Assembly (NCBI RefSeq): GCF_000758625.1 | Contig: NZ_CP009283.1 | Span: 4,785,501-4,849,500, forward strand | Source of the DNA: Paenibacillus sp. FSL R7-0273 | Lineage (GTDB): Bacteria; Bacillota; Bacilli; Paenibacillales; Paenibacillaceae | DNA: 64,000 nucleotides | Direction of reading: 5' to 3' | In this document: positions 13,066 through 61,328 of the stretch, piece after piece | Layout: each line of letters starts with the position of its first letter | Position numbering within the stretch: the first letter of the stretch is position 1 | Notes under the pieces: generated by a model | The model's database searches: none | Seen by the model: the letters and a program-made list of their open reading frames with translations, nothing else | What the model was told of the DNA's origin: nothing | Program-made: the position numbers and the translations under genes

Positions 13066-13331
13066 TTAATCACGTAAAACCGATGAAGGAACAAAGATTC
13101 TGAAGGTCTCCAGAGAGCCGGTGGTTGGTGCAAACCGGTGGCGGACAGTGTTCTTTAGCGCTCCTGAGATATTGTATCGAACGAATAGTAGATACAATCG
13201 GATCATCTCCGTTACCAGTGTGGCCTTTTGGGCCAATGAGGCTGCTTCTTAACAGATGCAGTGAATTAGGGTGGTACCACGACAACTCTCGTCCCTTACT
13301 ACGGCAGTAGTATGGGGTTGGGAGTTTTTTT
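13066..13331 (+). promoter_or_regulatory. T-box leader of serA
   Basis: The conserved T-box core GGGTGGTACCACG lies at 13269-13281. Upstream are the Stem I elements, including the AGAGAGCCGGTGGTTGGTG region (about 13112-13130). Downstream, AACTCTCGTCCC pairs with GGGTTGGGAGTT followed by seven T, the terminator that alternates with the antiterminator. Uncharged tRNA would allow read-through. The gene and an AGC triplet on the 3' side of Stem I (about 13157) fit serine, but I did not fold the RNA, so the specifier is inferred. Confidence 0.92.
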
Positions 13332-17305: not shown

Positions 17306-18556
17306 ATGGACTGGATGACTAAGCTTCCATTAAAGCAGAGAATCGTTGCCGGCTGTTACCTTGTTGCCGCTTTATTCGCTGTTCCGGTTTTAATCACGCT
17401 TGTAATCATGGGCAAAATCGTTATCGGCATCATTCTCATCGCCGCACTGGCAGGACTGACTTATCCTCTGGCACGCTTTGTAGAGAGAACGCTTACATCT
17501 TCTTTTGACGAGTTCTCCAACGTTACCCATACCATAGCCAAAGGCGACTTTACAAGCCGCGCTGACGAAAACGGGTCAATGGGCGAGGTCAGCCGCTCCT
17601 TTAACACCATGATTGACAAGCTCAAGAAAATCCTGACGGAAGCCTCACAAATTACGCGGCATGTAATGGATGCCAGCAGAGGCATCGAGGACAAGAACCA
17701 CAGCCTCAAAATTGTAATGGCCCAGGTCGCCTCCTCCTCCAATGAGCTCGCTGTCGGCGCTAACGAAATCTCCGCAGATATTGCCGACATGACGGAATCC
17801 ATCAAGGATATCGAAACTAAGGTAGCCAATTACACGCACTCCACCAAGGAGATGAACAAACGCTCTATACATACGCTTGAACTGGTTGAACAAGGGAGGG
17901 TATCAGTAGATACCCAGGCGGAAGGCATGCGCAAAAATATTGAGGCCACCAATAAGGTCGCCGGTACCATAGAGGCGCTCTCCCAGAATGCCCGCGGTAT
18001 TTCCATGATTGCCAAGTCCATTACCGAAATTGCCGAGCAGACCAACCTGCTGTCGCTGAACGCTTCAATTGAGGCGGCACGCGCAGGTGAGCACGGCCGC
18101 GGCTTTGCCGTTGTCGCCCAGGAGGTGCGCAAGCTCGCAGAGGAATCCACCGCCTCAACCAAAGAGGTCTTCACCCTGATCCGCAGTATCGAATCCGATA
18201 TCAAGCAGGCGGTGGAGAATATCGCCATTAACGAAGAGGTTGTTCAGGTACAGAACGAGCTGATTGTGGAGACTGCCCATATCTTCTCCCAGATCGTGCA
18301 AAGCGTTCAATACATAACCGAGCAGATCGCAGCCTTCTCCCAGGAAAGTGACCTTATGCTGGAGAGTGCCCTCAAAATTTCCGGCGCCATTGAAAATATC
18401 TCAGCAATCACCCAGCAGACGGCTGCAGGTACCGAAGAGGTGTCTGCAGCAATGAATGAGCAGATCAATGCCCTGCAGTCTGTAGCTGATGAGACAGACA
18501 AAATGACCCAGGCCGTATTCCAGCTGCAAAAAACCATTCACATATTCAAGTTTTAA
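17306..18556 (+). CDS. Methyl-accepting chemotaxis protein without sensor domain
   Basis: This 416-residue chemoreceptor has two adjoining membrane segments (about 14-35 and 37-58) with only a turn between them, a HAMP-like segment (about 58-110), and a long coiled signalling domain. The tip motif around residues 245-275 ([22 protein letters not shown]) is the CheA/CheW-contacting hairpin. No extracellular domain exists, so the input must come from the membrane, the cytoplasm or a partner. The ATG at 17306 follows AGGGGGAAC. A terminator separates it from the c-di-GMP riboswitch operon downstream. Confidence 0.92.
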
Positions 18557-18577
18557 GCAAGCATTACTTTGGTCCCA

Positions 18578-18610
18578 AAGCTGCCGTTCTTTAGAAGCGG
18601 CAGCTTTTTA
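18578..18610 (+). terminator. Terminator after the chemoreceptor gene
   Basis: AAGCTGCCG and CGGCAGCTT pair around TTCTTTAGAAG and are followed by TTTAAG. Confidence 0.8.
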
Positions 18611-18680: not shown

Positions 18681-18708
18681 TTGACAATGATAGAGTTAAA
18701 AATATATT
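18681..18708 (+). promoter_or_regulatory. Promoter of the c-di-GMP riboswitch operon
   Basis: TTGACA at 18681-18686 and TATATT at 18703-18708 are 16 bases apart, with the riboswitch starting about 45 bases downstream. Confidence 0.65.
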
Positions 18709-18759
18709 GTAAAAGTAAAATTACCCAATGTAATATTATCCAACTTTGTACCTAACCCC

Positions 18760-18848
18760 ATATCGGCAAAATTCTCCGAAAGGAAATGACGCAAAGCCAT
18801 GGATCTACAGTCTCAGCTATCGGGACCATGATTGCCAGGTTGCAGCCC
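18760..18848 (+). promoter_or_regulatory. c-di-GMP-I (GEMM-I) riboswitch
   Basis: The conserved order of GEMM-I aptamers is visible: CGGCAAA (18764-18770), a CCGAAAGG tetraloop region (18776-18783), TGACGCAAAGCC (18787-18798), a variable arm, then ATGATTGCCAGGTTGC (18828-18843). These match the GGCAAA, GAAA loop, GACGCAAAGCC and receptor-side elements. A 10-bp hairpin with a weak T-rich tail lies at 18895-18917. The first gene starts at 18982. Whether c-di-GMP turns the operon on or off cannot be read from sequence. Confidence 0.87.
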
Positions 18849-18894
18849 GGGACGCCAGAATCATTCTGTCCTTAACGGCTATAGATGCAACTGG

Positions 18895-18917
18895 CCTGTG
18901 CTCATTTTGAGTACAGG
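18895..18917 (+). terminator. Hairpin downstream of the c-di-GMP aptamer
   Basis: CCTGTGCTCA pairs with TGAGTACAGG around TTT (one G-T pair), followed by TATTCTATTGTC. It is probably the expression platform, but the T tract is broken. Confidence 0.5.
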
Positions 18918-18981
18918 TATTCTATTGTCACCAGAGTCACTAGAATCGCTAGACAAATACACAACGGATAGGGTGGAGCAT

Positions 18982-20610
18982 TTGAAAACAGTCGCAGATT
19001 ATATGGCAGAGGCGCTTCGCAGCCTCGGCGTAACACATTCCTTTGGTATTATCGGTAAATCAATTTGTCCTATTGCTCTTAAAATGGTTGATTACGGCAT
19101 CGAATTTATTCCGGGCAGACATGAATCCAGCTGCGGCTTCGAAGCCGCGGGCTATGCACTCAAAACCGGCGGGCTAGGTGTTGCCTTCGGCACCTCAGGC
19201 CCGGGCGGAACCAACCTGCTTACTGCAGCAGCACATGCCAAAGCCAACAATCTTCCTGTCCTGTTCATTACAGGACACCAGTCAATTAAGGAGCTCGGAA
19301 TTCCGCAGTGCCAGGATTCCTCCTCTTATCTGGCCGATCTGGCGGATATGTTCAGACCGGCTACCTTATTCAGCAAGCTGGTTGAGCGCGGAGATCATTT
19401 CAGCACGATTTTTAATCATGCCATTTCTATTGCTCTCAGCAAGCGCGGTCCGGTGCATCTGTGTATTCCTTTTGATGTCCAGACAGAAATGCTTGAAGAA
19501 TGCCGTATTGTTCTTCCTGAACGCGAGCCGCTTGTCAGCATCGGGAATTTTGAGCGTGTAATTGCGGCAATCAATGCATCCTCACGTCCGCTGATTATTG
19601 CCGGTAAAGGCGTTAACCGGTCCGGTACGCATCAGGAGCTGGTACAGCTCGCTGAAACCTTCAATATCCCGATCGTTACAACTCCGGGGGGAAAAGGCGC
19701 TATCGCCTGGGACCATCCGCTATACCACGGCCCTTGCGGCGTAGGCGGCTGCAAGCACGGGGATGACATGCTGAACAGCAGCGATCTTTACATTGTGCTC
19801 GGCTCGCGCCTGAGTGATATGACGATCTGCAATCTCAAAGCGGAAAACCATCCGGCTACACTGATCCAATTCGATTCCGACCCTACCTTTGTCGGTAAAA
19901 TTCTGAATTCGCAGACGATTGCGGTCAGCGGAGATCTGCGTGATAACCTGACCTACTACCTGCAGAATATCGACAGAGATACTGTTGTCAGACATGAAAT
20001 AACTGTAGAGGCTAATTACCATGATGAGCTGCCGGAGCTGCCAAAGCTCTCCATCGCTTCCGTCCTGAGTACTTTGAGCGATCAGATTCCTTATAACAGC
20101 TCGGTATTTGTAGATGACGGCAGCCACGGCTTCCATGCTGTTAAATGGTATAACGTCAAGAAGCCGGGAAGCTTTATCTTTGATGCCTATTTTGCCTGCA
20201 TGGGCAACTCGATCGGCATGTCCATCGGCGCCAAAGTGGCGGCACCTGATGAAACGGTCTTCTGCATCACCGGTGACGGCTGCTTCATGATGCTCGGCGC
20301 TGAGATCAACACCGCAGTCTGCAAGGACATCCCGGTTATTTTTATCGTGGTTAATAATATGCAGCTCGACATGGCTCTTAAGGGCATGGAAAAAACAACC
20401 GGCAGAATTGACGGTACCCTCTTCGAGGTTCCGATGGATGCCGCAAAATTCGGGGAATCCCTCGGAGCTGTAGGCTACAAGTGTGAAACAGCCGGACAGT
20501 TTGCAGCAGCTCTTGAAGCCGCAATCGCCTCCAATAAGGTAGCAGTCATTGAACTGCTTACCGACCGTGACGAAATGCCTCCGACAGCGCACCGTGTATT
20601 GAATCTGTAA
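18982..20610 (+). CDS. ThDP-dependent acetolactate-synthase-like enzyme
   Basis: The 542-residue protein has the three-domain layout of ThDP enzymes: N-terminal Pyr domain (about 1-165) with the cofactor-activating Glu in GRHESSCGFEAAGYA, a middle Rossmann-like domain (about 185-320), and the PP domain (about 365-540) with the GDGCFM ... VVNN ThDP/Mg signature. It resembles IlvB-like proteins, but no regulatory-subunit gene or other branched-chain pathway gene is nearby, so biosynthetic acetolactate synthase is not assumed; an acyloin- or ketoacid-processing carboligase or decarboxylase is possible. The TTG at 18982 is chosen (GGGTGGAG just upstream); the frame is open further but without similarity. 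First gene of an operon behind a c-di-GMP riboswitch. Confidence 0.85.
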   Translation: MKTVADYMAEALRSLGVTHSFGIIGKSICPIALKMVDYGIEFIPGRHESSCGFEAAGYALKTGGLGVAFGTSGPGGTNLLTAAAHAKANNLPVLFITGHQSIKELGIPQCQDSSSYLADLADMFRPATLFSKLVERGDHFSTIFNHAISIALSKRGPVHLCIPFDVQTEMLEECRIVLPEREPLVSIGNFERVIAAINASSRPLIIAGKGVNRSGTHQELVQLAETFNIPIVTTPGGKGAIAWDHPLYHGPCGVGGCKHGDDMLNSSDLYIVLGSRLSDMTICNLKAENHPATLIQFDSDPTFVGKILNSQTIAVSGDLRDNLTYYLQNIDRDTVVRHEITVEANYHDELPELPKLSIASVLSTLSDQIPYNSSVFVDDGSHGFHAVKWYNVKKPGSFIFDAYFACMGNSIGMSIGAKVAAPDETVFCITGDGCFMMLGAEINTAVCKDIPVIFIVVNNMQLDMALKGMEKTTGRIDGTLFEVPMDAAKFGESLGAVGYKCETAGQFAAALEAAIASNKVAVIELLTDRDEMPPTAHRVLNL

Positions 20611-20641
20611 TAATATCACATCATTCAGGAGGTTTTCTTAA

Positions 20642-21010
20642 GTGGAAAGTTCAGTGAACAGCGGGGTTAAGCATTTTACCAATCTGTCCGGGGATTACGG
20701 CAGCAAACATATGGAGCCGATTAATGAGCATTTTCCGGAATTGGCTGAGTACATTATGGGCAATGCCTACGGCGATATTTTTCAGCGTACAACGATCGGC
20801 GCAGACTGGAAGGAAATTGCTGTGATTTCAGCCCTGATCACCATGGGCCAGTTCGAACAGCTCGGCGTACATTATGTAATGGCGCTGCGTGTAGGCATGA
20901 CCGTGGAGCAGATCAAAGGTATCCTGCTGCACCTGGTACCGGCAATCGGTGTACCGAAGGTTATTTCTGCCTTTAATGTGCTGCTTGCCACACTGGAGGA
21001 AATCAAGTAG
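20642..21010 (+). CDS. Carboxymuconolactone-decarboxylase-like (AhpD fold) protein without cysteines
   Basis: The 122-residue helical protein has the CMD pattern: WKEIAVISALITMGQFEQLGVHYVMAL, then GMTVEQIKGILLHLVPAIGVPK. It has no cysteine at all, so it cannot be an AhpD-like peroxidase; a lactone or keto-acid decarboxylase role or a binding role fits better. The GTG at 20642 lies nine bases after AGGAGG. It starts 31 bases after the ThDP gene, so the two are probably cotranscribed and may act on the same metabolite. Confidence 0.82.
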   Translation: MESSVNSGVKHFTNLSGDYGSKHMEPINEHFPELAEYIMGNAYGDIFQRTTIGADWKEIAVISALITMGQFEQLGVHYVMALRVGMTVEQIKGILLHLVPAIGVPKVISAFNVLLATLEEIK

Positions 21011-21059
21011 CTTTTGAACATGTAGAATACACCTATTTTGTTTTGGAGGCTTGAGCCAA

Positions 21060-21404
21060 ATGGGCAAATACGCGCTGAAAACCGATCCCGAGAACAGAAT
21101 CCTGCATATCCAGCTGGAGGGCACCTTCTCCAATGAGGATGGCCTCAAATCGATTCAAGCCTACCAGCAGATCGTCAATCCGATTACCTCCAGTGAATAC
21201 TCCCTGCAGATTGACTGCCGCAAGCTGAATGTCACTGCTCCGGATGTGGTTCCCCTGCTGGAAAGCTGCTTTCATATGTTCAAATCGGATGGTTTTCAGC
21301 AGGTTTCCCTTGCTCTCGAAAATAATCCGCTGCTCAAAATGCAGCTCTCCCGGCTTGGCCGTAAGGCAGGGCTTGAGAATATGCTGATTGTTCCTTCTTT
21401 TTAA
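21060..21404 (+). CDS. STAS-like (SpoIIAA-type fold) protein
   Basis: The 114-residue product alternates strands and helices like STAS proteins: KTDPENRILHIQLEGTF, a helix, YSLQIDCRKLNVTAPDVV, a helix, then QVSLALENN. The fold assignment is tentative and no phosphorylatable Ser motif is clear. The ATG at 21060 lies ten bases after GGAGG; the TTG at 21051 is too close. Third and last gene of the c-di-GMP riboswitch operon, followed by a strong terminator. Confidence 0.65.
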   Translation: MGKYALKTDPENRILHIQLEGTFSNEDGLKSIQAYQQIVNPITSSEYSLQIDCRKLNVTAPDVVPLLESCFHMFKSDGFQQVSLALENNPLLKMQLSRLGRKAGLENMLIVPSF

Positions 21405-21430: not shown

Positions 21431-21480
21431 AAAAAAGCAACCGGCAGACAAGTGATAACTTGCCTGCCGGTTGCTTTTGT
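21431..21480 (+). terminator. Bidirectional terminator
   Basis: AAGCAACCGGCAG and CTGCCGGTTGCTT pair with inner CAAGT/ACTTG. T-rich on the plus side and A6 on the left, so it can end the riboswitch operon and glpK. Confidence 0.88.
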
Positions 21481-45393: not shown

Positions 45394-45526
45394 ATATACG
45401 AGAGTTTGCCGATAATTCTAATAAAATGGTGCGTAAATAAACCTACTCACAAATCTTTGTGAAAGTTCGCACAATATATATTGGAATACACCAGTACGCC
45501 TGCCCGTTCAGGGGCAGTACGTTATT

Positions 45527-45693
45527 CTCTCCTTCTTCCATCCAGACTATACTGTCGGTCCCGGAATTGCACCGGGTCCACCGTCCATATCATAGATACG
45601 GCGCGGGTAGCGGACTAAGCACGTCAAGGCTGCAACAGCCATTGAACAGTGACATCACCGCCGGTAGGGAATTACACCCTGCCCTGAAGGATC
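45527..45693 (-). promoter_or_regulatory. FMN riboswitch of the riboflavin operon
   Basis: On the minus strand the RFN core reads CAGGGCAGGGTGTAATTCCC, CCGGCGGTGATG, the variable arm, GGACGGTGGACCCGGTGCAATTCCGGG, and the closing GACAGTATAGTCTGGATGG. Confidence 0.95.
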
Positions 45694-45717
45694 AAATCAG
45701 TATGAAATTAAGTACCG

Positions 45718-60930: not shown

Positions 60931-60974
60931 ATCTCGAATAAAAGGCAACAGGAATACACCTGTGTCCATATTCT

Positions 60975-61120
60975 TTGATCCTCTCCCATCCGGACTTTAC
61001 CGTCGGCTCTGGATTGTCACCAGATCAGTCAATTCCGCGTTAACAGCGGAGCTTGAGTCGCGGGCTTAGTTCGCTTTGAACATCACCGCCGGTCAGGAAT
61101 TTCACCTTACCCCGAGAATC
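60975..61120 (-). promoter_or_regulatory. FMN riboswitch of the EamA transporter
   Basis: The minus strand shows CGGGGTAAGGTGAAATTCC, GACCGGCGGTGATGTTC, the AAGCCCGCGA region, GGTGACAATCCAGAGCCGACGG and AAAGTCCGGATGGGAGAGG, the RFN core in order. Confidence 0.95.
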
Positions 61121-61328
61121 TTGTATTCCGTTATTTTTTTCACAATCTCAGGATAACTCCATTCGCTGATTTCGTCCAGTCTTTTATGAAAATATTTTGC
61201 TGTATTTCATACAGAAAGGCATGGCCTGTTCCATTTTTCAAAACAACTGGAAGATATTATGATTTTAATAAGGTATAATGGAATCATCTGTTTTTTTATA
61301 TACTTTATCATTCAGAAAGAGGGTCCAC

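Follow-up and report, generated by a model that had tools for sequence, protein, structure and literature searches.

A c-di-GMP riboswitch operon of Paenibacillus and the candidate coupling of its ThDP-CMD enzyme pair to signalling genes

A GEMM-I leader ahead of ThDP, CMD and STAS-like genes

GEMM-I riboswitches for cyclic di-GMP (c-di-GMP) are already known in their own right, and one described counterpart to the leader analysed here is Cd1 of Clostridioides difficile, which controls flagellar genes. PMC9262584 describes Cd1 as an OFF-switch in which aptamer and terminator can coexist and an antiterminator competes with them. The leader in question lies in Paenibacillus sp. FSL R7-0273, within a 64,000-nucleotide (nt) stretch of contig NZ_CP009283.1 (assembly GCF_000758625.1, positions 4,785,501 to 4,849,500 of the forward strand), which is the whole DNA analysed and is called the window below; plain coordinates count from its first letter. 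Like Cd1, this leader has a GEMM-I aptamer, a separate downstream terminator and a possible antiterminator that would use the aptamer 3' strand. It differs from Cd1 in its target, an operon encoding a thiamine diphosphate (ThDP)-dependent enzyme, a CMD-family protein and a STAS-like protein, and in an antiterminator that the energy model for the window hardly favours. What is chiefly new is that, judging from gene order, the ThDP-CMD pair appears to be repeatedly coupled to c-di-GMP or two-component signalling genes, with wiring that differs by lineage. In the literature searched, which includes PMC12452182 and has most subscription journals outside it, no acetolactate synthase (ALS)-like enzyme is reported as a GEMM-I target, no paper joins CMD with GGDEF and thiamine pyrophosphate or acyloin with c-di-GMP, and CMD, acetolactate synthase and diguanylate come together only in a genome annotation.

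A conserved GEMM-I aptamer and a terminator stand ahead of the ThDP-CMD-STAS genes. The Rfam model RF01051 matches positions 18755-18847 on the plus strand at 61.8 bits (E 1.1e-9) against a gathering cut-off of 35, over the model's full length of 87 positions, and both this score and the conserved expression platform downstream place the element in the family, as the initial annotation had proposed. The aptamer sits between a sigma-70 type promoter (TTGACA-16-TATATT, 18681-18708, plus strand), which matches 11 of 12 consensus letters, and an intrinsic terminator hairpin with a U-rich tail (18894-18930, plus strand), which was found by a terminator scan and forms the expression platform; these flanking elements had also been predicted. 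The aptamer was present at all 51 fetched loci with a ThDP orthologue of at least 81% identity (12 and 39 from two locus sets). In the first set of 19 loci, it was found in the 12 with an orthologue of at least 82% and in none of seven more distant ones. In the second set of 56 loci, searched with a model from 20 aptamers, the 39 positives are all the loci with an orthologue of at least 81%, and the 17 aptamer-less loci comprise 11 from a sister clade at 73-75% identity (xylanexedens, pabuli, taichungensis and kin) and six with a ThDP homologue of at most 50%. GEMM-I looks scarce in the sister clade beyond this locus, because just one of six genomes with a 74-75% orthologue has GEMM-I anywhere, compared to eight aptamers in the window genome. 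Some genomes are represented twice among the 51 loci, once from each of two collections, and removal of 12 duplicate leaders left 40 distinct ones, the window included. Across a genus sample, a ThDP orthologue of at least 79% was found in 58 of 100 genomes (own genome included); the aptamer counts take in 37 of these 58, and the other 21, including those at 79-80%, lie outside them.

In the alignment of the 40 distinct leaders, TTGACA is unchanged and the -10 region almost unchanged, and promoter-like sites as a class number 9 against 3.7 expected from shuffled sequence. Terminator-like sites taken together show no enrichment over shuffled sequence (3 against an expected 2.7), and the support for the terminator at 18894 is therefore its conservation in 40/40 leaders. 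The hairpin proper spans 18894-18918 and is followed by ATTCTATTGT. Every leader has the CCUGU..CAGG hairpin and a T-rich tail (on average 6.7 of 9 letters are T, and never fewer than 5); pairs 1-7 and 9 can form in all 40, pair 8 can form in 35 and is broken in five, and pair 6 varies as G-U, G-C or A-U, a compensatory change. The whole 251-nt leader folds no better than its shuffles (z -0.96), 36 out of 200 of which fold equally well. One close relative (L010, 1281-1373) has CAGCAAA in its aptamer where most others have GGCAAA; by Vc2 numbering, this would be the position that sets preference for c-di-GMP or cGAMP.

Three closely spaced open reading frames (ORFs) follow on the plus strand, as the initial annotation had stated. 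They encode a 542-residue ThDP-dependent enzyme (18982-20610; PF02776, PF00205 and PF02775 above cut-off), a 122-residue CMD-family protein (20642-21010; PF02627 at 44.7 bits, cut-off 23) and a 114-residue STAS-like protein of SpoIIAA fold (21060-21404; assigned from a structure model, without a Pfam match), with gaps of 31 nt between ThDP and CMD and 49 nt between CMD and the ATG at 21060. The ORFs stood as annotated, and two of their starts were moved. Leader and protein alignments suggest that the ThDP gene starts at TTG 18982 rather than at the in-frame GTG 18973; the latter falls in the likely ribosome-binding sequence. The STAS-like gene more likely starts at ATG 21060, whose Met is unchanged in 21/21 alignment rows. 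In searches with the window proteins as tblastn queries, CMD was found at 13/13 and STAS at 12/13 loci of the close set, which counts the own locus and in which L020 is the one without a STAS match; in a larger set that includes the sister clade the counts were 50/51 and 49/51, and the three-gene block is conserved in Paenibacillus.

The ThDP protein has the N, M and C domains of its superfamily, the catalytic Glu in RHE, and the GDG and NN motifs. It shares this three-domain fold, the catalytic Glu and GDG-NN with IlvB/AlsS and with BbmA and CsmA, which are its nearest solved relatives by sequence (BbmA at E 5.4e-69); the literature searched gave no paper that treats BbmA together with thiamine diphosphate. 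Among NCBIfam models, it matches that of the ALS large subunit, TIGR00118, best, which might suggest a misplaced branched-chain acetolactate synthase. That match, however, reaches only 274.8 bits against a cut-off of 538.35, TIGR02418 acetolactate synthase scores 185.7 against 551.1, and the protein is under the cut-off of each ALS model among the best 25 of 63 matches. Moreover, no small subunit lies nearby, and tblastn with own-genome queries for IlvN, IlvC and LeuA, a search that did not include AlsD, found no homologue in the window, in 63 close or sister loci, or in 59 sensor-linked or control loci, in agreement with the annotated lack of adjacent branched-chain genes. A run that reads from its sequences as ilvB-ilvN-ilvC-leuA sits elsewhere in the genome, from C1:1419276. 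In a tree of 32 ThDP proteins, midpoint-rooted for drawing only, the genes with a riboswitch group with L199 and the sister clade at 100/99 and join the kinase-linked L142 and L201 at 100/100. All of these fall within a larger group of 27 rows, along with the other sensor-linked genes; this group has support of 92/99, below the starred level, and lies apart from IlvB, a second ALS-like protein, IolD (on a long branch) and L148/L149. The score below cut-off, the ilv run elsewhere, the tree and the lack of ilv neighbours speak against an ilv identity, which was rejected, and we regard the branched-chain explanation as close to negligible.

The CMD protein shares with PcaC and AhpD its membership of the CMD family, PF02627. 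A PcaC identity was rejected, the score being 40.9 against 155.7 bits for TIGR02425. The hallmark of AhpD is a CXXC redox motif; the window protein lacks it because, as the initial annotation had noted, there is no cysteine among its 122 residues, and an AhpD identity was likewise set aside. The CMD family also includes cofactor-free decarboxylases. If a carboligase and then a decarboxylase acted in turn, as AlsS and AlsD do, the product would be an acyloin, which is a guess from analogy. The diffusible acyloin or ketoacid product on which the initial annotation had speculated is likewise a conjecture.

Related ThDP-CMD pairs behind DhaR-type sensors

DhaR(N), the effector part of the Escherichia coli activator DhaR, has been solved bound to both DhaK and DhaL, so a domain of this type is able to read a neighbouring enzyme. 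Elsewhere, the ThDP-CMD family lies directly behind sensors with a DhaR-type GAF domain, a PAS domain and a GGDEF-EAL or histidine-kinase output. Taken by themselves, ThDP homologues at 43-50% identity look like unconnected metabolic genes; their immediate upstream neighbour, however, codes for a protein in which an N-terminal domain without annotation is followed by PAS and by either GGDEF-EAL or HisKA-HATPase. Using profiles built here, we found a GAF-domain sensor directly upstream of 43/46 ThDP genes (35 with GGDEF-EAL, predicted to synthesise or degrade c-di-GMP, and eight with histidine kinase) and a CMD gene within 900 nt downstream of 42/46. These 46 genes lie in 44 of 47 loci, hand-picked rather than random, from which L196, L200 and L215 were dropped for want of a ThDP ORF; 45 of the genes are 39-50% identical to the window ThDP, and one (L199) is 76% identical. 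A first tblastn with the window CMD as query had left the 43-50% relatives seemingly without CMD, and this view was dropped once the broader profile gave the count above. The three genes without an upstream sensor occur in the orders ThDP-CMD-histidine kinase-response regulator (L199) and ThDP-CMD-chemoreceptor (L213), and with a GAF-kinase gene on the opposite strand past CMD (L220). Outside the order, ThDP follows 10/12 GAF-bearing sensors, compared to 0/10 GGDEF-EAL genes without that domain. Both counts stem from 398 genomes searched at class level, with a Niallia sensor as query and matches at E<=1e-150, from which no frequency of sensors is derivable. Of the two exceptions, one locus ends right behind the sensor (L224) and one has no ThDP (L225); in L232 and L233 the sensor is split over two ORFs. 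The initial annotation had speculated about a tie to lifestyle switching, and this idea gains support from the homologous pairs behind GAF-PAS-GGDEF-EAL or GAF-PAS-kinase sensors.

Two loci (L198, L202) hold two full modules facing each other, sensor(GGDEF-EAL)-ThDP-CMD on one strand and sensor(kinase)-ThDP-CMD on the other. A still more divergent ThDP gene, at 32% identity, adjoins a gene of 936 residues at both L148 and L149; in L149 this neighbour encodes GAF-PAS-GGDEF-EAL.

The likeness of the sensor N-terminal domain to DhaR(N) rests on both sequence and fold. Its structure model (predicted local distance difference test, pLDDT, 88.3) matches three DhaR(N) entries in Foldseek at E 1.5e-13 to 3.7e-13 with TM-scores of 0.78-0.86, and a profile search reaches DhaR(N) at E 2.1e-10. 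A partial match to the NCBIfam DhaR model was found in 3/3 sensors, at 65.8-71 bits against the 551 of the full-length model, as expected for a single domain, and Pfam GAF matches one of four sensor-domain members (E 0.0023, below cut-off). A DhaR-type effector domain is thus present in the linked sensors and not in the window. The domain is presumably AcoR-like as well. The sensors differ from DhaR and AcoR in their output, GGDEF-EAL or histidine kinase, and in the enzymes next to them, ThDP and CMD.

The nearest solved structures to the GAF domain are, by their titles, the DhaR(N)-DhaL and DhaR(N)-DhaK complexes, and the sensor and ThDP ORFs range, as called, from an overlap of 105 nt to a spacing of 85 nt. 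Both observations would suit a trigger-enzyme arrangement, in which the GAF domain binds the ThDP or CMD protein and reports the state of the enzyme's substrate to the output, with no diffusible product, and in which this contact has been lost at the window locus, leaving just the enzymes under c-di-GMP control. However, the resemblance concerns the whole domain, and related GAF domains bind small molecules, as AcoR does with acetoin. We consider the trigger-enzyme arrangement rather unlikely.

At the window locus the sensor is missing, as it is, by one search, in the genome, and the riboswitch stands in its place. That search gave one weak match (E 8.8e-5), in an ORF with a LuxR-type helix-turn-helix, and no convincing copy of the sensor domain. 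The broader notion that the sensor is absent wherever the riboswitch is present was dropped; genome G007 has both, and the statement now extends to the window locus and genome.

We favour, as fairly probable, an explanation in which the window operon is the c-di-GMP-controlled metabolic arm of a signalling module. The predicted ThDP enzyme would decarboxylate or ligate a 2-keto acid, the predicted CMD protein would process the product to a small ketone-type compound, and the GAF sensors would read that compound in the species that have them; each of these steps is proposed with low confidence. An ordinary metabolic role is the other alternative, namely overflow or catabolism of 2-keto acids that c-di-GMP or the sensor merely tunes to lifestyle, the product being no signal. 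The ThDP enzymes named in the matches are indeed metabolic, and the adjoining STAS and KASIII-like genes fit a small biosynthetic pathway, but plain metabolism would not normally place a gene directly behind GAF sensors, as is the case for 43 of 46 genes and again in families outside the order, and we think this role improbable to a similar degree as the trigger-enzyme arrangement.

Several observations count against the signalling-module explanation. The sister clade retains the genes with an aptamer at 0/11 loci, and L199, at 76% identity, likewise keeps ThDP and CMD without an aptamer; c-di-GMP control is therefore dispensable. GEMM-I was found in none of 59 sensor-linked or related loci. 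Genome G007 carries a riboswitch-type copy (L015) and a copy linked to GAF-GGDEF-EAL (L146) at separate loci, and the two arrangements are therefore not exclusive. Since the window genome holds only the single weak sensor-domain match, nothing in it is known to read the product.

A more specific version, possible in our view and put forward tentatively, is that the product of ThDP-CMD would be a small-molecule signal not yet described, that across Bacilli GAF sensors of the DhaR type would convert it to c-di-GMP turnover or kinase output, and that in the Paenibacillus lineage of the window another copy would have come under c-di-GMP via the riboswitch. If true, this would amount to a circuit from a metabolite to c-di-GMP in which the wiring (sensor, kinase, chemoreceptor or riboswitch) is exchangeable. 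The gene arrangements suggest that a metabolite is tied to the lifestyle decisions of bacteria in a way not described before. The signals that set c-di-GMP levels in Gram-positive soil bacteria would then become approachable with one enzyme pair and one sensor domain.

Polarity of the switch

The layout resembles that of the Cd1 OFF-switch, and c-di-GMP therefore probably represses the operon. The CAGG in the aptamer 3' strand has the same letters as the terminator 3' arm and is complementary to the CCUG of the 5' arm, and CAGGUU can form five or six pairs with NNCCUG of the terminator 5' arm in 40/40 leaders. A six-pair partner for the aptamer GGUUGC occurs within 14 nt upstream of the terminator in 17/40 leaders, compared to 6.5% of random 14-mers. 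The aptamer and terminator are able to coexist, and the antiterminator would compete with both. In the absence of c-di-GMP, the aptamer 3' strand CAGGUU would pair with the terminator 5' arm and transcription would continue. With c-di-GMP bound, the aptamer would retain its 3' strand, the terminator would form and the operon would be off. The enzymes would then be produced in the low c-di-GMP, motile state.

The energy model is at odds with this scheme in places. In the truncated RNA of the window, the antiterminator reaches -33.7 kcal/mol, compared to -35.3 for the free fold and -34.7 with the aptamer helix; its pair probability there is 0.01, and just 16 of 40 truncated leader transcripts reach 0.3. 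The free fold of the window prefers to pair the aptamer GGUUGC with GCAAC upstream of the terminator, which would not switch by itself because it is compatible with an intact terminator. The window tail, TATTCTATT, shared by 6 of the 40 leaders, is also weaker than the commoner TTTTCTATT, found in 20.

An ON switch, in which c-di-GMP blocks termination and the operon is expressed in the sessile state, would accord with the weak antiterminator of the window leader and with the occurrence of both polarities among cyclic-dinucleotide switches with like aptamers, as described in PMC9262584. However, terminator and aptamer do not overlap, the terminator forms in the computed structures with the aptamer helix enforced, and no element capable of opening the terminator with ligand bound was seen. 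We regard an ON switch as unlikely. The OFF switch is the better guess by analogy, and the energies computed for the window leader do not decide between the two polarities.

STAS-like protein, KASIII-like genes and neighbours

The structure model of the third protein (pLDDT 91.7) has a STAS/SpoIIAA fold, in keeping with its earlier description as STAS-like. In Foldseek, its best match is 2q3l (SpoIIAA-like) at E 4.4e-5, followed by SpoIIAA and RsbV, with RsbS at 1.1e-3. The likeness to SpoIIAA, RsbV, RsbS and DUF3478 STAS proteins is one of predicted fold, with TM-scores of about 0.5-0.7 and matches at E up to 0.001. Unlike SpoIIAA and RsbV, the window protein has no Pfam match, and, since its relatives share a cassette with KASIII-like genes, the fold does not imply partner-switching. 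The idea of a sigma-factor switch was dropped; the relatives recur as a STAS-KASIII cassette without ThDP. A Thr in LNVTAP, invariant in 21/21 rows and missing from the own-genome paralogue, is merely suggestive of phosphorylation.

A KASIII-like gene follows the operon in 23/27 long-flank loci. It is missing in L063 and L064 (close kin) and in L087; L086, which has an aptamer at 75.2 bits and in which STAS was not found, has a 34-residue KASIII remnant behind CMD. STAS-KASIII also occurs as a stand-alone cassette and behind a more distant ThDP gene (L254, L255, L257). The KASIII-like proteins retain a cysteine in NANC, and judged by the FabH motifs their His and Asn positions look changed. 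A STAS-KASIII operon in the own genome (L150 3497-5090, aptamer at C1:3207496) is preceded by its own GEMM-I (L150:3497-3587, 63.5 bits), and two of the eight own-genome GEMM-I aptamers thus precede related genes. It is the only cassette with an aptamer among 21 KASIII loci (flanks of about 1.5 kb). Other own-genome aptamers precede FapA-like, transglutaminase, adhesin-like and GH26 proteins, and at C1:634653-634889 (L003, L002) two GEMM-I aptamers stand in tandem ahead of a transglutaminase-domain protein.

Downstream of the window operon, a hairpin with a T tail (21431-21480, plus strand, -33.3 kcal/mol), identified by eye and absent from the terminator scan list, probably ends the operon, and the next gene lies on the opposite strand. 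Upstream, a chemoreceptor gene (17306-18556, plus strand) encodes HAMP and MCP signalling domains behind a hydrophobic N-terminal stretch, and the domain search recognised no sensor domain in it. A terminator-like hairpin at 18577-18607 follows, and the gene is probably a separate transcription unit; a homologue lies near the operon in 11/13 and 34/39 riboswitch-bearing loci of the two sets. Elsewhere in the window, we observed a T-box leader at 13074-13299 on the plus strand and FMN riboswitches at 45526-45695 and 60974-61123 on the minus strand.

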